From Donghicola eburneus (GTDB lineage: Bacteria; Pseudomonadota; Alphaproteobacteria; Rhodobacterales; Rhodobacteraceae), in contig NZ_FOXY01000003.1 of assembly GCF_900115865.1 (NCBI RefSeq), positions 248,001 through 312,000 on the forward strand: a stretch of DNA of 64,000 bases. Direction: 5' to 3'. Positions 15,886-25,609 of the stretch are shown piece after piece (the stretch's first letter is position 1; each line of letters starts with the position of its first letter). The position numbers were made by a program, and so were the translations under genes. The notes under the pieces were generated by a model, which was given only the letters and a program-made list of their open reading frames with translations, had not been told where the DNA came from and did no database searches.

Positions 15886-17697
15886 TCAGGCTTCTTTCTT
15901 CTTCTTTTTGGCAAAGCTCTTCTTGATGTTGCCAAAGACGTCCGGTTTGTACCCGTGGCTGCGCATGATCAGGTACTGCTGGATAAAGGTGATCGTGTTG
16001 TTCGTGATCCAGTACAGAACCAGACCGCTGGCAAAGTTGCCGAGCATGAACATGAACACCCAAGGCATCCAGGCAAAGATCATCGCCTGCGCGGGATCTG
16101 TGGGCGCCGGGTTCAGCTTTTGCTGCAGGAACATCGAGATACCCAGCAGGATCGGCAGGATGCCGAGCGAAATGATCGCAAGGAACGACTCGGGGCTGGG
16201 AGCCGCGAAGGGCAGCAGGCCAAAGAGGTTCAGGATCGAGCTCGGATCAGGTGCCGAAAGGTCTTGGATCCAGCCGAACCAAGGTGCGTGACGCAGTTCC
16301 ATGGTCACAAAGATCACCTTGTAGAGCGAGAAGAAGATCGGGATCTGGATCAGCATCGGCAGACAGCCGGATGCAGGGTTCACCTTGTTCTTCTTGTATA
16401 GCTCCATCATGCCCTGCTGCATTTTCATGCGGTCATCGCCTGCGGATTCCTTCAGCTTTTCCATCTCGGGCTGAAGTTCACGCATGCGTGCCATCGAGGC
16501 ATAGGATTTGTAGGCCAGCGGCAGCACCAGCGCCTTGATCACAACGGTCAGGGCGATGATCGACCAGCCCATGTTGCCAATCAGGTTGTTCAGGTTGTGC
16601 AGCATCCAGAAGATCGGCTTGGTGAAATAGAAGAACCAGCCCCAGTCGATCGAGTCGACAAAGCCGGTAACGCCTTCGTCCTCTTCGTAGTGCTTCAGCG
16701 TTTCCCATTCCTTGGCGCCGGTGAACAGGCGGGTGCCTGCTTCGGCGGTTTCGCCAGCGGCAACGGTCACGGCGGGCAGCACGGCTTCGGCCTGATAAAT
16801 CTCGCGCGATTCAAAGAATTTCGCAGTTGAGCGGAAAGGCGCGTCGCCATCGGGGATCAGGATAGTCTGCCAGTAGTGGTCAGTGAAACCGATCCAACCG
16901 TTTTCTTGGACCTCGAGACGCTCGGCATTGGTGCCTTCGCGATCGTCGATGTCCATCTTGCTGAGCGCTTTGTAGTCCAGTTCTTGCAGCTCGCCATCCG
17001 ACATGCGGATCAGGCCTTCGTGCAGGATAAAGAACTTGGTCGTGTCAGGCTCGCCGTGGCGACGCACGATACCGTAGGGGCGCACAGTGATCGGATTACC
17101 GCTGGTGTTCTCGACGGTCTGGTTCATGCGGAACATGAAGTTGTCGTCGATTTCCATCACGCGGGTAAAGATCTGGCCAGCCCCGTTGTCCCACGTCAGG
17201 GTGACGGGGGTGTCTTGGGTCAGGACCGCGTCGGCGGGCGCGGACCAAAGAGTCTCTGGGCCGGGCACGTTCGCTGCGTCGATACCGTCAACAGGGGCCC
17301 AACCGAACAGTGCGTAGTAAGCGTTGGGCGAGCCGACGCGCGACAGGACCTGCACGTTTTCCGAGTCAGGGTCTGTGGTGACGTCGTAATCCAAGAGTTG
17401 GATGTCATCCACACGGCCGCCAAGCAGCGAGATCGAGCCTGCAATACGGTCAGTCTGGACCTGAATGCGGGGCGCGTCGCCTTCGGGGCTGAGTACGGGA
17501 GCAGCGGTTGTTGCACCGTCTGCGGTCGGCAAGTCACCGTCGGCGATCGCGGGCTGGTCACCCACGGTCTGTTCGGTCACTGCGGGGGCGTTGGGGTCTT
17601 GTACCGGTTCCTCGGGCGGGAAAAGCACAAACCAAATCACAAGCACGACACCGCTCAGTACGGTTGCGAGCAAGAGGTTCTTATTCTGATCGTCCAT
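15886..17697 (-). CDS. yidC: Membrane protein insertase YidC
   Basis: Inserts and folds inner-membrane proteins, alone or with SecYEG. The 603-residue protein has an N-terminal TM anchor (about 7-25) and a large periplasmic domain (about 60-350). The conserved five-TM core follows, with MARMRELQPEMEKLKE and PASGCLPMLIQIPIFFSLYKV split between loop and TM. The C-terminal tail is Lys-rich (AKKKKKEA). In many bacteria it directly follows yidD; here ttcA and an alpha/beta hydrolase gene separate them. The 103 bases upstream probably hold its promoter, though none is obvious. Confidence 0.97.
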   Translation of the reverse strand: MDDQNKNLLLATVLSGVVLVIWFVLFPPEEPVQDPNAPAVTEQTVGDQPAIADGDLPTADGATTAAPVLSPEGDAPRIQVQTDRIAGSISLLGGRVDDIQLLDYDVTTDPDSENVQVLSRVGSPNAYYALFGWAPVDGIDAANVPGPETLWSAPADAVLTQDTPVTLTWDNGAGQIFTRVMEIDDNFMFRMNQTVENTSGNPITVRPYGIVRRHGEPDTTKFFILHEGLIRMSDGELQELDYKALSKMDIDDREGTNAERLEVQENGWIGFTDHYWQTILIPDGDAPFRSTAKFFESREIYQAEAVLPAVTVAAGETAEAGTRLFTGAKEWETLKHYEEDEGVTGFVDSIDWGWFFYFTKPIFWMLHNLNNLIGNMGWSIIALTVVIKALVLPLAYKSYASMARMRELQPEMEKLKESAGDDRMKMQQGMMELYKKNKVNPASGCLPMLIQIPIFFSLYKVIFVTMELRHAPWFGWIQDLSAPDPSSILNLFGLLPFAAPSPESFLAIISLGILPILLGISMFLQQKLNPAPTDPAQAMIFAWMPWVFMFMLGNFASGLVLYWITNNTITFIQQYLIMRSHGYKPDVFGNIKKSFAKKKKKEA

Positions 17698-17800: not shown

Positions 17801-18664
17801 TCAGCGCAGTTTCGGGATTCCGTCGGTGTCTTCGGGGCGTGCGCCACGCTCCAAACCGGCAAAATCAAAGAGCCCCGCATCCAGCAGATGGCTGGGGCGG
17901 GCATTCATTAGAGCGCGGAACATGACCTGGCGGCGACCGGGGCTGTTCTTTTCCCATCCGTCAAGGATCTGCTTCACCTGCTGGCGCTGGAGCCCGTCCT
18001 GCGAGCCGCAGAGGTCGCACGGAATGATCGGATAGTTCATCGCGCGGGCGAACTTCTCACAATCGTCCTCGGCCACAAAGGCCAGCGGGCGATAGACAAA
18101 CAGGTCACCTTCTTCGTTCACCAGTTTCGGCGGCATGGTCGCAAGGCGCCCGCCGTGGAACAGGTTCATCATAAAGGTTTCCAGAATGTCGTCGCGATGG
18201 TGCCCCAGCACGACTGCGCTGCACCCTTCTTCTCGGGCAATGCGATACAGGTTGCCGCGGCGCAGGCGCGAGCAGAGGGCACAGTAGGTACGGCCTTGGG
18301 GGACCTTGTCCATCACGACACTATAAGTGTCTTGATATTCGATCCGGTGGGGCACCTTCATCTTTTCCAGAAACTCGGGCAGGACCGTCGCCGGAAAGCC
18401 GGGCTGACCCTGATCCAGGTTACACGCCAGGATTTCGACAGGCAAAAGCCCGCGCCACTGGAGTTCGTGCAGAACGGCCAGCAGGGTGTAGCTGTCCTTG
18501 CCGCCCGATAGACAAACGAGCCAACGGGCGCCACGTTCGATCATACCGAACTGTTCGATCGCCTCGCGCGTCTGGCGCACGATGCGTTTGCGGAGTTTCT
18601 TGAACTCTGTCCCCGAAGGGGCCCCGGCAAAGAGCGGGTGAATCTCGTCATGTTCATCAAGCAT
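17801..18664 (-). CDS. ttcA: tRNA 2-thiocytidine(32) synthetase TtcA
   Basis: [4Fe-4S] enzyme that thiolates C32 in a subset of tRNAs, including tRNA-Arg. The 287-residue product has the PP-loop SGGKDS, the first CxxC in [11 protein letters not shown] and the second in PCDLCGSQ; these cysteines bind the cluster. The start at 18664 ([12 protein letters not shown]) is the best family match. In-frame starts at 18727 and 18853 exist but run into the divergent hydrolase gene. A tRNA-Arg(ACG) gene, a possible substrate, lies 6 kb away. The start choice is moderately sure; the family is certain. Confidence 0.93.
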
Positions 18665-18739
18665 GGCGCGGGGTATGCCAAACCCGACTGGATAGGAAAA
18701 GCCTTTTGCTGTTGCCTCGTTTTGCATTTGAGAGGGAAC

Positions 18740-19720
18740 ATGGATTACATTTTTACGGTCCGCCGGATTCGTAACGGGACATTTCAGCCCGAGCCCGGCC
18801 AAAATAGCTTCTTGGTGGTGCCGCCAGAGGCCGAAGATATCAGCCCCGCGCACCGCATTGGTGGTGCTGTGAAAAAGATGCCTGACAGTTGGGCGCGGCG
18901 GGTTTTACACGAATCCAAGCTGGATCACGTGCCCGAAGGTCAGCCCAATCGCGGTGACATCGTGGTGCATATCCACGGCTTTAATGTTTCGACCAGGAAG
19001 ATGTTGCGCAGGCACCGATTGCTGGCCAAAGGCTTGCGGGATCAAGGGTTTGAAGGTGTCGTGGTCAGTTACGATTGGCCCTCGGCGGACAAGGCCCTGA
19101 ACTATTTAGAGGACCGGACAGATGCCAAGATCACCGCGATCCGACTGGTAGATTCTGGGATCACAGGCTTTGCGCAGCGGCAGACACCTGACTGCCCGAT
19201 CAACCTTCATATCGCCGCGCATTCGATGGGCGCGTTTGTGTTGCGAGAGGCGTTCGACGATGCCGATGACCGCCGCTACGTGGCGGGTCATGCTTGGAAT
19301 GTCAGTCAGGTGCTTTTGATGTCAGCGGACGTCTCTGCGGCGGGGATGTGCCAGCATGCGGGAAAAAGCAGCTCTTTGTATCGGCATTGCACACGCCTGA
19401 CCAACTACAACAACCCCCATGATTCGGTGCTGTCCCTGTCGAACATCAAACGGCTCGGGGTGGCGTCTCGGGCGGGGCGCGTGGGTCTGCCGGACACGGC
19501 GCCGGATCATGCGGTGAATGTGGATTGTGGTGCGTATTTCGACGCCAATCGCGCAAACTACGCAGATATCGAGTATGGTCAGCACACTTGGTATTATCAT
19601 GACCCCGTTTTCATGCGGGATGCCTATGAGACCATTCTTGGGATAAGCGACCGATCGACCTTGGCGACGCGCGCAACGATTCCTGCAGCCCTGAAGAACC
19701 GGTTGGCGCTGGTTGGTTAG
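18740..19720 (+). CDS. Alpha/beta hydrolase (DUF900/COG4782 esterase-like)
   Basis: A 326-residue esterase/lipase-superfamily protein. The DUF900 signatures are the oxyanion-side [10 protein letters not shown] (about 75-84), the VVVSYDWPS segment (108-115) and the nucleophile elbow AAHSMGAF with Ser162. A C-terminal His in the [10 protein letters not shown] region may complete the triad. No signal peptide is visible, so it is probably cytoplasmic. The start at 18740 follows AGAGGGA; an upstream in-frame ORF start lies inside ttcA. It is divergent from ttcA (75 bases) and converges on yidD with a shared TTAG stop overlap. The substrate is unknown. Confidence 0.8.
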
Positions 19721-19956
19721 TGGTGGTCGTGCTTGCAGGGCGGGACGGGATCATAACCCGATCCGCCCCAAGGATTGCACCGTATGATGCGGTGAATGGT
19801 CAGATATGTGCCCTTGATCGCGCCATGCTTTTCCAGCGCCTCGAGCGAGTAGACAGAGCATGTGGGCTGGAACCGGCAACTTGTTCCGATCCAAGGTGAC
19901 AATGTCAGCCGATACAAACGCACAGGCAGCGCAACAATATGGGCGAGCGGGCTCAT
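19717..19956 (-). CDS. yidD: Membrane protein insertion efficiency factor YidD
   Basis: Small amphipathic membrane-associated protein that aids YidC-dependent insertion. The 79-residue product has the family signatures [20 protein letters not shown] and the conserved [13 protein letters not shown] near the end; the cysteines are typical. It overlaps rnpA by 4 bases. Its stop codon overlaps that of the convergent hydrolase gene. It is the third gene of rpmH-rnpA-yidD. Confidence 0.95.
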
Positions 19957-20387
19957 TTCTGCGGGGGCTTCGGGCTGTGGACCTTGCGCAAGGCATAGCG
20001 CAGGTCGCCGCGCAGGGCGTCAAAGTCTCGATCAATGGTCGCCTTGGGGCGGCCAATCAGCACGTAATCCCAACCCGCACGGCCGAGTTCAGGGACCAAC
20101 TCGCGTGCAATTTCGCGCATCCGGCGCTTGGCGCGATTGCGGGCGACAGCATTGCCGATCTTTTTAGAGCAGGTAAAACCGATGCGGATCAGGTCTTGAT
20201 CGCATTCGTCGGGCGCACGTTTCCGGCCTTGCAGCATGAGCCCTGCAGTGCCTTGCTTGTTAGCGCGCGCAGCTCGCAGGAAATCCGACCGATTTTTCAG
20301 ATTTTCCATGCGAAAGGGCACCGCCTCGTCCCGAGCCGGAGCCTGTGTAGGTGCCGGCGCGGGCGATGACGGTGCCCGATCAGTCAT
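19953..20387 (-). CDS. rnpA: Ribonuclease P protein component
   Basis: Protein subunit of RNase P, which removes 5' leaders from precursor tRNAs. The 144-residue protein has the conserved RNR block ([18 protein letters not shown]). The core begins near residue 27 ([13 protein letters not shown]), and a Pro/Ala-rich N-terminal extension precedes it. The start at 20387 is taken because it follows rpmH by 14 bases; a start at Met27 would also give a complete domain. It overlaps yidD by 4 bases. Confidence 0.93.
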
Positions 20388-20800: not shown

Positions 20801-21535
20801 ATGACATCGACCAAATCCAAGCCTGTGCTAGGGGCTGTCCAAAAGCAGGTGCCGTTGATTCTACTCGTGGCGGGCGGCATAATCGGAGCGATCTTTCTTA
20901 AAGATATCCTTGATTTTCAGACATTAGCCGAGAATCGCGAGCGGCTCATTTCGCTGCGAGATGCCCATTACGGCTGGGTCGCGGCGGCCTTCGTGCTTGC
21001 TTATGCTGTGCTGGTTGCGTTTTCCTTGCCAGGTGCGACGGTTGCCACGTTGACCGGCGGCTTCTTGTTTTCCACCTTTCCTGGCGTGCTGTTCAATGTC
21101 AGTGGCGCCACCATCGGCGCAGTTCTGTTGTTCTTGGCAGCCCGCTGGGGGCTTGGGGATCGGCTGGCGGAAAAAATGCAGACCAGTGAAGGCCGAATCC
21201 GGAAAATCAAGGAAGGAATCGATGCGAACCAATGGGAAATGCTGTTCCTCATCCGATTAATTCCCGTCGTGCCCTTCTTTGTCGCGAATCTGGTGCCTGC
21301 GCTCGTCGGGGTCGCCTTCCTGCCGTTTCTGGTCACGACCTTCCTGGGGATTATGCCAGGAGCGCTGGTCTATACATCTGTCGGCTCGGGACTCGGCGCG
21401 ATCTTCGAACGCGGTGAAACGCCGGATCTTGGAATTATCTTTTCACCGTCTGTGCTGCTGCCTTTGCTAGGGTTGGCGGCACTGGCGGCCTTGCCTGCTG
21501 TGGTGCGGGCCTTTCGCAAAACACCTGGGGTCTAA
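20801..21535 (+). CDS. TVP38/TMEM64 (VTT/DedA-like) membrane protein
   Basis: A 244-residue inner-membrane protein of the VTT/SNARE-associated family. A first TM lies at about 20-40. The conserved core has FSLPGATVATLTGGFLF (about 75-92), GATIGAVLLFLAARW, and the reentrant/Arg motif LIRLIPVVPFF NLVPALVGV (about 150-170). A last TM lies near 220-240. The start at 20801 is the first ATG; upstream in-frame codons lack support. It is followed after 3 bases by a flavoprotein gene. Fused versions of these two families exist in other bacteria, which argues for a functional link. Lipid scrambling or transport is a family-level guess. Confidence 0.85.
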   Translation: MTSTKSKPVLGAVQKQVPLILLVAGGIIGAIFLKDILDFQTLAENRERLISLRDAHYGWVAAAFVLAYAVLVAFSLPGATVATLTGGFLFSTFPGVLFNVSGATIGAVLLFLAARWGLGDRLAEKMQTSEGRIRKIKEGIDANQWEMLFLIRLIPVVPFFVANLVPALVGVAFLPFLVTTFLGIMPGALVYTSVGSGLGAIFERGETPDLGIIFSPSVLLPLLGLAALAALPAVVRAFRKTPGV

Positions 21536-21538
21536 ACA

Positions 21539-22957
21539 ATGAAGCATATTAAAACAGACCTGCTGGTCGTTGGCGCAGGCTCTGGCGGACTGTCTGTTGC
21601 AGCTGGTGCCGCGCAGATGGGGGCGAAGGTTGTCCTGTTGGAGCGGGGCAAAATGGGCGGCGATTGTTTGAACTACGGCTGCGTGCCGTCCAAGGCGCTG
21701 ATCGCCAGCGCGGCCCGCGCACATCAGATGGCGACAGCTGACGCGTTTGGGATCAAGGCGGTCAAACCCGAAGTGGACTACGCTGCGGTCAAGAAGCGCG
21801 TCGCTGAAGTCATTGCCACCATCGCTCCCCATGACAGTCAAGAGCGGTTTGAAGGCTTTGGCATAACGGTTCTCCGCGAAGAGGGCTGCTTCGTCGGCGC
21901 GAACCGTATGGTCGCGGGCGAGACAGAGATTGAGGCGCGGCGGATTGTGTTGGCCACGGGTTCCCGCCCGGCTGTCCCGCCAATTCCTGGGATTGAGGAC
22001 GTGCCCTACCTGACCAATGAAACGCTTTTCGATCTGCAAGAGAGGCCGGAGCACTTAATTATCATCGGGGGCGGGCCGATCGGCTTAGAGATGGCTCAGG
22101 CCCATGTGCGTCTTGGGTGTCAGGTCACTGTGCTCGAGGCGGGCGGTGTCCTCGCCAAAGAGGATCGCGATGCGGCTTCGTTGGTCGCCGAGACCTTGCG
22201 CGAAGAAGGTGTTGATATTCAGGAATACACATCGGCTCTTCGGATCGGGGGCGAGGCGGGCGCGCTCTGGGTCGAGACGAATACGGCGCGCAAGATCGAA
22301 GGCACACATCTGCTGATCGCTGCGGGGCGTCAGCCGAATATCGAGTCTCTTAACCTGAGTGAAGCTGGGATCGACTTTTCCAAGACAGGGATCACGGTGG
22401 ACGAGGGACTGCGGACATCGAATCGCAAGGTTTATGCCATTGGGGATGTCGCGGGCGGCATGCAATTTACCCACGTCGCAGGTTATCACGCAGGAATTAT
22501 CATTCGCTCTGCGCTTTTGTCTTTGCCCGCCAAGGCGAAGACATCCCACATTCCACGGGGGACATACACCGCGCCCGAATTGGCCCAGATCGGGATGACC
22601 GAAGATGAGGCACGCCATGCTCATGGTGATGACATAGAGGTAGTGCGATTCGACTACGACGGGAATGATCGCGCCATTGCGACAGGCCGTACGACAGGCT
22701 GGATCAAGGTCATGGTGCGCAAAGGTCGGCCGGTTGGTGCGACAATTGTCGGGCCCGACGCAGGCGAGATTATAAACCTGTGGGCTATGGTGCTCGCGAA
22801 CGGTTTAAAGATGTCGCATCTCACGAATATGGTCTCGCCATATCCCACGATGGGAGAAATAAGTAAGCGCGCGGCAGGGAACTATTTTTCGCCCCGTCTG
22901 TTTGATAACGAAATAGTGAAATACGTGGTTCGGGCTGTGCAGGCACTGCTGCCCTGA
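21539..22957 (+). CDS. FAD-dependent pyridine nucleotide-disulfide oxidoreductase (MerA/Lpd-like)
   Basis: A 472-residue class I flavoprotein disulfide reductase: FAD-binding GAGSGG (12-17), redox pair Cys43-x4-Cys48 in GGDCLNYGCVPSK, NAD(P)-binding GGGPIGLEMA, and a second FAD motif YAIGDVAGG. The dimerisation domain near the end has SPYPTMGE, where Tyr435 stands where lipoamide dehydrogenase has its catalytic His. This resembles MerA-like and SthA-like members and argues against a true lipoamide dehydrogenase. There is no N-terminal HMA domain and no C-terminal Cys pair, so mercury reduction is also unlikely. It is coupled to the VTT gene upstream. Confidence 0.85.
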   Translation: MKHIKTDLLVVGAGSGGLSVAAGAAQMGAKVVLLERGKMGGDCLNYGCVPSKALIASAARAHQMATADAFGIKAVKPEVDYAAVKKRVAEVIATIAPHDSQERFEGFGITVLREEGCFVGANRMVAGETEIEARRIVLATGSRPAVPPIPGIEDVPYLTNETLFDLQERPEHLIIIGGGPIGLEMAQAHVRLGCQVTVLEAGGVLAKEDRDAASLVAETLREEGVDIQEYTSALRIGGEAGALWVETNTARKIEGTHLLIAAGRQPNIESLNLSEAGIDFSKTGITVDEGLRTSNRKVYAIGDVAGGMQFTHVAGYHAGIIIRSALLSLPAKAKTSHIPRGTYTAPELAQIGMTEDEARHAHGDDIEVVRFDYDGNDRAIATGRTTGWIKVMVRKGRPVGATIVGPDAGEIINLWAMVLANGLKMSHLTNMVSPYPTMGEISKRAAGNYFSPRLFDNEIVKYVVRAVQALLP

Positions 22958-22975
22958 CCAGACCGAGGGATATAG

Positions 22976-24367
22976 ATGTTCAAGTCGCTCTCAGGGCGGT
23001 TCCTGATCCTCACGATCATTTTCGTGATGCTCGCCGAAATCCTGATCTTTGTGCCCTCGATTGCGCGTTATAGAGAGGACTTTCTTCTGGCGCGCATCGA
23101 ACGGGCCCAGATTGCGTCGCTGGCCTTGCTGGCGAACGGCGCAGTCGATCGCGATCTTGAAGAAGAACTGCTGCTGAATGCTGGCGTCTATAACGTCGTG
23201 CTGCGCCGGAACGAAGCACGCCAACTTGTTTTGTCCTCTCCCATCCCATCGCCAGTCGCGGCCACATACGATCTGCGCGACACCCCCGCTTGGGAGCTTA
23301 TCCGCGATGCCATGGTTGCCCTGTGGAACCCGCAAGACTCCGTGCTGAGGGTGATCGGTTATCCGACACAGGATGCGGGTATGCTGATCGAGGTGACGCT
23401 GCCGTCTGCGCCCTTGCGTGCAGCCCTTCTGGATTACGGGCTGCGAATCCTATGGCTCTCATTAGCGATTTCGCTGATCGCGGCGGCTCTGTTGTTTTTT
23501 GCGGTGCGCAAAGTCATCGTCTCGCCCATGCGCAGTGTGGTGCGCCAGATGGCACGCTATGCCGAGGCACCAGAGGACGCCCGCCGGATTATCACGCCCT
23601 CGAATGGAATCACTGAATTGCGAGAGGCCGAAGAAGCGCTGAAGTCCTTAGAGACTGAATTGACCGCGGCCCTACGCCAGAAAGAGCGGCTTGCTCAACT
23701 TGGCGGGGCTGTTGCGCGGGTCAGCCATGATTTGCGCAATATCCTGACGAGCGCGCAGCTTTTCGCTGACCGCCTGGAAAGCAGCGATGACCCGACCGTT
23801 GCTCGAATGGCGCCGAAGCTCGTGCGGTCTATTACGCGGGCTGTAACCCTAACCGAGAGCACCTTGGCCTTTGGCAAGGCGCAAGAGCCGCCCCCCAGCT
23901 TGTCGCGCGTCCCGCTTGCGGATCTAGTTAACGATGTGCTGGAAAGCGAACGCCTCGCGATCGGGGACGAGGATATCAGTCTGTCCGCCGACGTGATGGC
24001 AGGAACTGTGATCCGCGCGGACAGCGAACAACTGCATCGGGTGCTCTCTAATCTGGTCCGGAACGCACGACAGGCCATCGCAAGCGCAGGCACGGGCGGG
24101 GAGATTTGCATTCACAGCGAAGAAGACGATGAATGCTGGCGCATCCACGTGCGTGACACGGGCCCCGGTCTGCCGGCCAAAGCGCGAGAGCATCTGTTCC
24201 AACCTTTCGCAAGCAGCAGCAAGAGGGGCGGTACCGGTCTGGGGTTGACGATTTCTCAAGAGCTTATCCGTGGACATGGCGGCCAATTGCGGCTGGAGCC
24301 TGATTATGATGGGGGCACGGCCTTTGAAATTTGGCTCCCCAAGGGCGATGCCGAAATTAATTTCTAA
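22976..24367 (+). CDS. Sensor histidine kinase (orphan)
   Basis: A 463-residue two-TM kinase. TM1 is at about 8-28, a periplasmic sensor domain at about 30-155, and TM2 at about 156-177, followed by a HAMP-like linker. HisKA has RVSHDLRNILTS with phospho-accepting His251; HATPase has the N-box NLVRNARQAI, G1 DTGPGLP and G2 GGTGLGL. No response regulator is adjacent. It starts 18 bases after the flavoprotein stop, so it is probably in the same operon as the VTT and flavoprotein genes. The sensed signal is unknown. Confidence 0.88.
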   Translation: MFKSLSGRFLILTIIFVMLAEILIFVPSIARYREDFLLARIERAQIASLALLANGAVDRDLEEELLLNAGVYNVVLRRNEARQLVLSSPIPSPVAATYDLRDTPAWELIRDAMVALWNPQDSVLRVIGYPTQDAGMLIEVTLPSAPLRAALLDYGLRILWLSLAISLIAAALLFFAVRKVIVSPMRSVVRQMARYAEAPEDARRIITPSNGITELREAEEALKSLETELTAALRQKERLAQLGGAVARVSHDLRNILTSAQLFADRLESSDDPTVARMAPKLVRSITRAVTLTESTLAFGKAQEPPPSLSRVPLADLVNDVLESERLAIGDEDISLSADVMAGTVIRADSEQLHRVLSNLVRNARQAIASAGTGGEICIHSEEDDECWRIHVRDTGPGLPAKAREHLFQPFASSSKRGGTGLGLTISQELIRGHGGQLRLEPDYDGGTAFEIWLPKGDAEINF

Positions 24368-24424: not shown

Positions 24425-24501
24425 GCACCGGTAGCTCAGCTGGATAGAGTATCTGACTACGAATCAGGGGGTCGGGGGTTCGAATCCTCCCCGGTGCGCC
24501 A
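24425..24501 (+). tRNA. tRNA-Arg (anticodon ACG)
   Basis: A complete 77-base cloverleaf. The acceptor stem is GCACCGG (24425-24431) / CCGGTGC (24491-24497) with discriminator G and encoded CCA (24499-24501). The D-loop is AGCTCAGCTGGATAGAGT, the anticodon loop CTACGAA gives ACG (read as ICG after deamination), and the T-loop is TTCGAAT with a five-pair stem including one G-U. It decodes CGU, CGC and CGA. No integrase or repeated 3' end follows it. Confidence 0.96.
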
Positions 24502-24928: not shown

Positions 24929-25609
24929 ATGCTGACGATCACAAACCCCGTAGAAATCACAGCCGCATCAATGGCCTATTGGGCCAAGGGCCTGCGGATG
25001 CAGCAGGAAATGATGAGCTGCTCTTATCGTCTGATGATGGTCTGGTCGCCGTTCTCCTCTCTGAACCTGAAGCTATCGAGCGAAGAAGCGGCAGCCCCCG
25101 CGCTGAAGGCCGTGGCGACGCCAGCAGAAAAGCCCAAAGCAGCGCTGAAGCCTCGCTCGACCCGAGCCCCCGCGCGCAAAACGACTCGCAAGCCTGCAGC
25201 GAAGCCTGCCGCGGTTGAGGCCGCTGCGCCCAAAGTCGCCGAGGCTCCGAAGCCTGCCCCTAAGGCCGAGGCCCCGAAGCCCGCACCAAAGGCTGAAGCT
25301 CCCAAGGTGGAGGCGCAGAAGCCTGCACCCAAAGCCGAAGCGCCCAAGCCTGCTCCGAAAGCCGAGATATCAAAGCCCGCTGCCAAGGCAGAGGCGGCTA
25401 AGCCCGCTGAGGCGCCGAAACCGGCTGAAGTAAAGCCAGCACCCGCGAAGCCGGCAGAGCCTGCAAAGCCCGCAGAGGCGGCGAAACCTGCGCCTCAGGC
25501 AGCGAAACCTGCAGCACCGCAATCCAAGCCCGCAACGACTGCCGCGGCACCCACGAAAACACGCGCTCCGTCAGCGCCGCCGTCGATGCCCGCAGCGAGC
25601 AAGAAATAA
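24929..25609 (+). CDS. Ala/Lys/Pro-repeat protein with Met-rich N-terminal helix
   Basis: A 226-residue protein not recognised as a known family. Residues 1-45 form a Met-rich, probably amphipathic helix (AKGLRMQQEMMS, RLMMVW), reminiscent of the short helical starts of small granule- or membrane-associated proteins in this order. From about residue 55 the chain is low complexity, made of Ala, Pro, Lys and Glu, with tandem PKPAPKAEA-type units, like histone H1 or TonB/DamX-type linkers. The ATG has AAAGGAA upstream. It is flanked by the tRNA gap and by a strong terminator, so it is monocistronic. The phasin-like or nucleoid-associated suggestions are guesses. Confidence 0.7.
   Translation: MLTITNPVEITAASMAYWAKGLRMQQEMMSCSYRLMMVWSPFSSLNLKLSSEEAAAPALKAVATPAEKPKAALKPRSTRAPARKTTRKPAAKPAAVEAAAPKVAEAPKPAPKAEAPKPAPKAEAPKVEAQKPAPKAEAPKPAPKAEISKPAAKAEAAKPAEAPKPAEVKPAPAKPAEPAKPAEAAKPAPQAAKPAAPQSKPATTAAAPTKTRAPSAPPSMPAASKK
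25241..25394 (+). repeat. Degenerate tandem repeat encoding EAPKPAPKA units
   Basis: Within the AKP-rich gene, codons 105-155 repeat a 9-residue unit (EAPKPAPKA) at least four times with small changes and insertions. At DNA level the units are about 27 bases, with synonymous differences. Such tracts vary in copy number between strains and can be collapsed by assemblers. Confidence 0.75.

Follow-up and report, generated by a model that had tools for sequence, protein, structure and literature searches.

The window analysed here, 64,000 nucleotides of the Donghicola eburneus contig NZ_FOXY01000003.1 (positions 248,001 to 312,000), carries three genes which lie on one strand and are separated, in the list of open reading frames (ORFs), by gaps of 3 and 18 bases: one encoding a membrane protein of the VTT/DedA superfamily (20801–21535, + strand; 244 amino acids, aa), one encoding a flavoprotein with a CxxxxC motif (21539–22957, + strand; 472 aa), and one encoding an orphan sensor histidine kinase (22976–24367, + strand; 463 aa). 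The ORFs, their order, strand and gaps are as described in the initial annotation, which regarded them as a putative operon, a proposal now supported by the conservation of the arrangement in relatives (see below). AAGGA/GAGG-like sequences precede the starts at 20801 and 22976. A promoter between 22957 and 22976 had been named as evidence that would speak for separate transcripts; on the + strand of this junction neither a promoter-like nor a terminator-like site was found with a sigma-70-type consensus scan, both kinds of site being near chance level in the region. No NCBIfam model reached its cutoff for any of the three products among the matches listed (the best 25 of 74 for the flavoprotein, the best 25 of 79 for the kinase, none shown for the VTT protein).

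The VTT protein was annotated as TVP38/TMEM64-like, and it does match VTT_dom with 80.6 bits (Pfam cutoff 33.9), which makes it a DedA/VTT protein of the COG0398 type, one of six VTT-domain matches in the source genome. It has five hydrophobic stretches and is devoid of cysteine; column 226 of the VTT alignment, where half of the rows have Cys, is occupied by another residue in the window's protein. Five residues (R152, P155, P158, F159 and N163) are invariant among 49 aligned sequences. In the approximate region of the first re-entrant loop, as read by eye in the alignment, S75, P77, G78 and G86–F90 are conserved and no acidic residue is.

The flavoprotein consists of Pyr_redox_2 and Pyr_redox_dim and has the fold of FAD/NAD(P)H-dependent disulfide reductases, with Cys43 and Cys48 forming the CxxxxC motif; the only other cysteines among its 472 residues are at positions 117 and 194. 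Its closest relatives of solved structure are a mercuric reductase (MerA; 5x1y, 265.7 bits) and, next, a lipoamide dehydrogenase (Lpd; 1ebd, 238.1 bits). Tyr435 aligns with the HAHPT segment of 1ebd, that is, with the His base as the initial annotation had stated, and with APYLT of 5x1y; Tyr435/Glu440 thus replaces the catalytic His-Glu pair of Lpd. All 46 family sequences and 23 of the 24 class sequences have tyrosine there, and C43, C48, E200, Y435 and E440 are each conserved to at least 90% across the class (24 sequences). The MerA extras were likewise correctly noted as lacking: the C-terminal Cys pair which binds Hg(II) in MerA is absent, and no N-terminal heavy-metal domain is matched in Pfam. 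The curated models agree, as the score stays below the cutoff for MerA (TIGR02053, 349.6 against 454.45 bits) and Lpd (TIGR01350, 346.9 against 408.8 bits), and far below it for RclA (NF040477, 238 against 740 bits) and hypothiocyanous acid reductase (NF041853, 224 against 650 bits). An identity as classical Lpd is therefore rejected by Tyr435 together with the TIGR01350 score, as MerA by the lack of the C-terminal Cys pair together with the TIGR02053 score, and as RclA by the cutoff; the conclusion that the enzyme is neither Lpd nor MerA stands, with the qualification that Tyr435, being itself a MerA trait, argues against Lpd and not against MerA.

A Glu following the second β strand of the NAD fold is a sign of NADH use, while MerA relatives use NADPH. 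At the position of Glu200, 1ebd has Glu and 5x1y Gln; Glu200 points to NADH as the cofactor. Beyond the Lpd/MerA fold the structural model (mean pLDDT 90.3) predicts an additional helix (residues 458–470; pLDDT 84 for block 461–470) behind a loose linker (below 50 for residues 449–455). Its hydrophobic moment ranks at the 99th percentile among 17-residue windows of the same protein, and the mean net charge, measured for 45 of the 46 family rows, is about +2. This amphipathic C terminus (residues 456–472, codons 22904–22954, + strand) is, by inference from the model, a candidate membrane-docking element.

The kinase was described as a two-transmembrane (TM) sensor kinase, and it indeed combines HisKA and HATPase_c with two hydrophobic stretches. 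Every kinase row, 138 from the family and 27 from the class, has the phospho-acceptor H251. In the model (mean pLDDT 76.6; 76–93 for the sensor blocks) a long TM1 helix is followed by a helix, three strands, a helix, two strands and TM2, that is, by a small mixed α/β domain predicted to be periplasmic. Within the class set this periplasmic part has the lowest mean majority share (0.49), the highest being those of TM1 (0.68) and the dimerization and phosphotransfer (DHp) domain (0.70). TM1 and the stretch behind it contain E21, P27, S28 and R33, found in 136, 137, 135 and 137 of 138 family kinases and in 26, 27, 26 and 27 of 27 class kinases. The sensor part matches no Pfam model at E 0.001, and two fold searches were filled by kinase cores, so that its fold is described from the strands and helices of the model. 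For the tree, internal stops in kinase rows were coded as X, and the kinase of locus L313 was excluded from set A2; set A3 comprises 67 of 78 usable kinase rows and set A4 45 of 76 flavoprotein rows, each plus the window. The window's kinase has no cysteine in its sensor and none outside the ATPase domain; the kinase alignments have a single Cys column (C293, DHp domain), and the window's protein carries another residue there. A thiol relay via the VTT protein, or a Cys sensor in this kinase, was considered and is rejected, the window having no Cys at either C293 or VTT column 226.

No regulator had been noticed beside the kinase, and none of the 65 receiver domains of the genome lies in the window. 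Among 188 loci, many of which span 8 kb or end with their contig, a receiver domain was found near the kinase in two at E 1e-5: in L131 it is one domain of a hybrid kinase (PAS-HisKA-HATPase-receiver-Hpt) encoded convergently, about 0.7 kb beyond the kinase gene, and in L337 it belongs to a 168-aa frame at a distance of 3.4 kb. A stand-alone regulator next to the kinase is therefore rejected, none adjoining it in the stretches covered, and so is a receiver fused to it, as the loci with long frames (in genomes G215, G192, G347 and G329) gave no receiver match. The kinase is an old, class-wide orphan.

The gene order of related loci was read by tblastn. Among 149 genomes of the family, matches were obtained to the kinase in 138, to the flavoprotein in 136 and to the VTT protein in 138, the latter two counts including weak matches to other copies. 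The kinase is present in 137 of the 148 family loci fetched, and in 120 of these 137 all three genes follow in order and in one orientation, the ends of successive matches lying a median of 16 and 24 bases apart; a chance arrangement is rejected by this number of ordered, co-directional triads. Three kinase loci retain the VTT gene only, two the flavoprotein gene only (L118 and L225, on short contigs), and one is rearranged (L116). A further set of 80 named loci, taken from the top of at least 595 pattern matches and overlapping with the family set, has the triad in 74, mostly in genera of the Roseobacter group (Shimia, Ruegeria, Roseovarius, Octadecabacter, Loktanella and others). At class level, 240 genomes contain the kinase (E 1e-30 or better) in 115, the flavoprotein (E 1e-75 or better) in 127 and both in 101 cases, and in 71 of the 101 the two are adjacent, that is, co-directional within 2.5 kb. 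The initial annotation had called for such a survey and would have given up the grouping if co-occurrence were not conserved; the counts at family and class level clearly show that it is. By manual count of 40 class loci, which were picked mostly for adjacency and for exceptions and are not a random sample, a divergent rnpA gene is followed by the VTT, flavoprotein and kinase genes in 20; a 21st (L332) has rnpA 4 kb off, and five further triads have no rnpA in the stretch. As judged from gene order, a co-directional VTT-flavoprotein-kinase cluster, mostly beside rnpA-yidC, is thus kept across the family and much of the class.

The kinase itself appears restricted to the class among the phylum genomes scanned: a profile built from class members, with six candidates scored per genome, gave 48 full-length matches in 249 genomes, all in the same family or class, and the best match outside the class (139.3 bits) covers the kinase core only. 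Relatives of the flavoprotein were found in 89 of 185 genomes of another class, 47 of them, by manual count, in open frames of 710–832 aa, the length of a VTT fusion; this count is one of lengths alone, and stop-to-stop frames can be long by chance. One contig titled as a Cytophagaceae metagenome-assembled genome (PALD01000006.1, locus L390) encodes a kinase (66% identical) and a flavoprotein, both of Roseobacter type, and is probably mislabelled or part of a mixed bin.

The canonical flavoprotein is missing from 22 of the 149 family genomes, some of which are incomplete. A second flavoprotein, 42–44% identical, is encoded in 8 of these 22, versus 1 of the 127 genomes with the canonical enzyme (38% identical there, perhaps of another type; Fisher 5e-7). 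Where the canonical VTT gene is gone (G010, G012, G016 and G124; loci L455, L458, L459 and L461), the second flavoprotein is fused to a VTT domain of its own; where it is kept (G024, G034 and G111; loci L454, L456 and L460), the second flavoprotein is unfused; G077 lacks the canonical VTT gene and has an apparent shortened VTT remnant on the second flavoprotein. Fusion where the VTT protein is lost, and none where it is kept, suggests that the two are needed as a pair. Similarly, where the flavoprotein gene is gone from beside rnpA and the kinase kept, the VTT gene is gone too in 9 of 12 loci, which fits the pair and does not tie the kinase to it. A unique situation is met in one single-contig genome (G350, locus L314): the 474-aa, full-length flavoprotein beside the kinase has lost both motif cysteines, Tyr435, Glu440 and His312. 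No other flavoprotein match at E 1e-75 or better is listed for that genome, and E21 and S28, present in the other 26 of 27 class kinases, are both missing from its kinase.

Eight of the 40 class loci have, upstream of the kinase gene and in its orientation, a small ORF whose product begins, by eye, like a signal peptide and contains CNPCAAK, CSPCAAE or CGACKAK repeats. The repeat gene ends about 180–260 bases before the kinase match in six loci (L316, L320, L323, L324, L327 and L329) and about 1.3 kb before it in L309; in L316, L320 and L324 it accompanies a kinase with no flavoprotein adjoining. In L313 (genome G149) another small ORF of 165 aa (155 from an inner Met) intervenes, secreted-looking and by eye cupredoxin-like near its C terminus; it has no Pfam or NCBIfam match. 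Three repeat proteins tested reached no Pfam or NCBIfam cutoff, and a term search of the main text of PMC12452194, on MNIO enzymes and bufferins, gave no mention of CNPC or VTT. As a DNA pattern CNPCAAK occurs in 18 of the 240 class genomes, and no genome gave a match to the reversed control. Seven of the 18 (G149, G176, G227, G230, G261, G344 and G357) have an array about 180–650 bases ahead of the kinase gene, the other 11 have none beside it, and many arrays are located elsewhere in the genome; the adjacency is far beyond chance, on a probability calculated from a manual count of about 28 clusters. The kinase is present in all 18 genomes, with p of 8e-7 overall, 0.003 among genomes of at least 2.0 Mb and 0.07 among those of at least 2.5 Mb, and this weakening means that genome size explains part of the co-occurrence. 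A scan for Cys content gave mostly antisense noise and was used only for L324 and for rows confirmed independently, so that other variants may be missed; the repeat matches in L163 and L385, by sequence the same stretch, look like noise and were not counted. As the pattern occurs in 0 of 149 family genomes, it is a lead on the kinase and not part of the window.

Upstream of the triad in the window lie a divergent rnpA gene (19953–20387, − strand), ttcA (17801–18853) and yidC (15886–17697), each above an NCBIfam cutoff, which together anchor the locus. An ORF for a DUF900-type α/β hydrolase (18638–19720) between ttcA and rnpA has relatives in 2 of 60 other loci, as read with a rough gene caller which is unreliable in high-GC loci. 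Downstream, a tRNA-Arg(acg) gene (24425–24501, + strand) marks the boundary of the putative operon, and an ORF at 24929–25609 (226 aa) with a long Ala/Lys/Pro-rich tail has no Pfam or NCBIfam match at E 0.001.

The reading that we favour, tentatively, is that the triad constitutes an envelope-homeostasis module whose parts are a carrier (the VTT protein), an NADH reductase docked on the membrane (the flavoprotein) and an orphan kinase that senses the membrane; its locus would be ancestral in the class, which the named relatives indicate to be Alphaproteobacteria. In this view the substrate moved or scrambled by the VTT protein in the inner membrane would be a lipid or a compound soluble in lipid. 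The flavoprotein may use its amphipathic C-terminal helix to dock either on the VTT protein or on the membrane, and may take electrons from NADH via FAD and the Cys43/Cys48 pair to an acceptor located on the inner side. The kinase might read the state of membrane or envelope through the TM1 motif and its small periplasmic domain and signal to an unlinked regulator. Kinase and enzyme pair would then serve one physiological task yet be separable. This reading is suggested by the co-location of the three genes with small gaps, by the class restriction of the kinase, by VTT-flavoprotein fusions and the pattern of replacement, by the C-terminal helix, and by the conservation of Glu200 and Tyr435 as well as of E21, P27, S28 and R33. 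Triads outside the usual position beside rnpA also belong here: two are intact with no rnpA in a locus covering at least 4.6 kb upstream (L120 and L147), and one lies on the other side of rnpA (L144).

Several observations weigh against such a module. The kinase lacks both partners at 11 of the 137 family loci; in nine of these rnpA is directly upstream (L100, L102, L104, L106–L110 and L112), one lies at a contig end (L111), and in the last (L125) the VTT-flavoprotein pair of the genome is on another contig. Besides this one, four of the 11 genomes have a fused VTT-flavoprotein elsewhere, and six (G023, G030, G042, G046, G068 and G085), in which flavoprotein and VTT protein are both gone, have no flavoprotein relative above 224 bits, which speaks against a strict need of the kinase for its partners. 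At the thresholds used, 14 class genomes have the kinase only and 26 the flavoprotein only, and in 30 of the 101 with both the genes are non-adjacent (many on different contigs, some at contig ends). The replacement statistic shrinks when descent is considered, to 6 changes on the kinase tree and 4 supported independent pairs, with a sign test that is not significant; and the C-terminal helix of the window's own flavoprotein has a net charge of 0. Lone kinases beside rnpA and the non-adjacent cases are what would be expected if the rnpA-yidC region is simply rarely rearranged, with VTT protein and flavoprotein cooperating and the kinase, unrelated to them, serving a regulon of its own; the recurrence of the same rnpA, ttcA and yidC neighbours at great distance fits this too. 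Inertia of position does not readily account for the small gaps and common strand in the family, nor for the triads without rnpA or on its other side, while the joint loss of VTT protein and flavoprotein speaks for the pair and leaves the kinase untied; on balance we consider this explanation somewhat unlikely.

The flavoprotein might instead be a MerA/RclA-type reductase of metal ions or of polysulfides/disulfides, with a kinase reporting periplasmic metal or thiol stress. A mercuric reductase as nearest solved relative, with the same Tyr, and the secreted-looking Cys-repeat proteins with their arrays close to the kinase would suit such a role, which is nevertheless unlikely: the C-terminal Cys pair is lacking, the MerA and RclA cutoffs are not reached, Glu200 suggests NADH as cofactor and not the NADPH of MerA relatives, and the repeat pattern is absent from the family, has no array beside the kinase in most of the 18 genomes, and owes much of its co-occurrence to genome size. 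Quite unlikely, in our view, is a class-specific device for inner-membrane signalling, in which the orphan kinase would read a lipid- or thiol-borne signal by its intramembrane E-P-S-R motif and a VTT-docked NADH flavoprotein would act as co-sensor or eraser of the signal; elsewhere secreted CNPC-repeat proteins would deliver a periplasmic signal and the flavoprotein could survive as a pseudo-enzyme, as in G350. The initial annotation had guessed at a membrane-linked redox-sensing unit; in this version the kinase would receive its redox input from the flavoprotein. The conserved adjacency agrees with it, and the residue-less flavoprotein kept beside the kinase of G350, the one of 27 without E21, is as expected for an added non-catalytic, perhaps signalling, role, albeit in a single genome. 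Against it, the flavoprotein is predicted to be cytoplasmic and the variable sensor domain periplasmic; the kinase has no conserved sensor Cys, those of the window's protein being confined to the ATPase domain, and the VTT protein has none; and there are the lone and the non-adjacent kinases, among them those of the six family genomes that keep the kinase without a flavoprotein relative above 224 bits. The conserved co-location part of the guess has thus held, and one redox-sensing unit has not fared as well; we regard it as decidedly improbable and as one of several readings of a system which was rightly called poorly described.

The coupling of VTT protein and flavoprotein as such is already published: fusions to pyridine nucleotide-disulfide oxidoreductases are the most common COG0398 fusion according to the available part of PMC10127716, in line with the annotated fusions in other bacteria. 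As far as that part goes, COG0398/TMEM64-type proteins are linked to aerobic life, their function in bacteria is not established, and COG0398 is essential in Caulobacter crescentus and Dinoroseobacter shibae, without a statement as to which copy. A literature search covering part of the matching articles found no report which adds the kinase to this link. Genetic access to bacterial COG0398 function, in tractable marine bacteria, is offered by the conserved enzyme and kinase encoded beside the VTT gene and, in other loci, by a Cys-repeat protein, and a partner found by phosphotransfer profiling of the orphan kinase would by itself place the module in the regulatory network.

Compared with known systems, the flavoprotein shares with MerA (5x1y; TIGR02053) the fold, the CxxxxC motif and the Tyr at the position of the Lpd His, and differs in having neither C-terminal Cys pair nor metal-binding N-domain, in its NADH-type Glu200 and in the extra C-terminal helix. 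With Lpd (1ebd; TIGR01350) it has in common the fold, the motif and the Glu at the NAD site; there, Tyr435 takes the place of the catalytic His, and no ORF of a lipoyl complex is recognised beside its gene. To RclA and hypothiocyanous acid reductase there is a distant family resemblance, far below the cutoffs. The kinase has the HisKA/HATPase core of ZraS/AtoS-type kinases (NCBIfam AtoS, 141.8 bits; ZraS, PDB 9jfj, second in the Foldseek list) and is set apart from them by its own TM1 motif, a sensor unmatched in Pfam and the lack of a regulator beside it. The VTT protein resembles COG0398 in lacking a conserved acid in the first loop, where COG0586 has conserved acidic residues, a distinction taken from the available part of PMC10127716. 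The locus as a whole is closest to the COG0398 DedA fusions, with which it shares the VTT domain and the association with the same flavoprotein family; unlike these, it keeps the two as separate genes and has a class-restricted kinase as the third, a partner not mentioned in the part of that article available.

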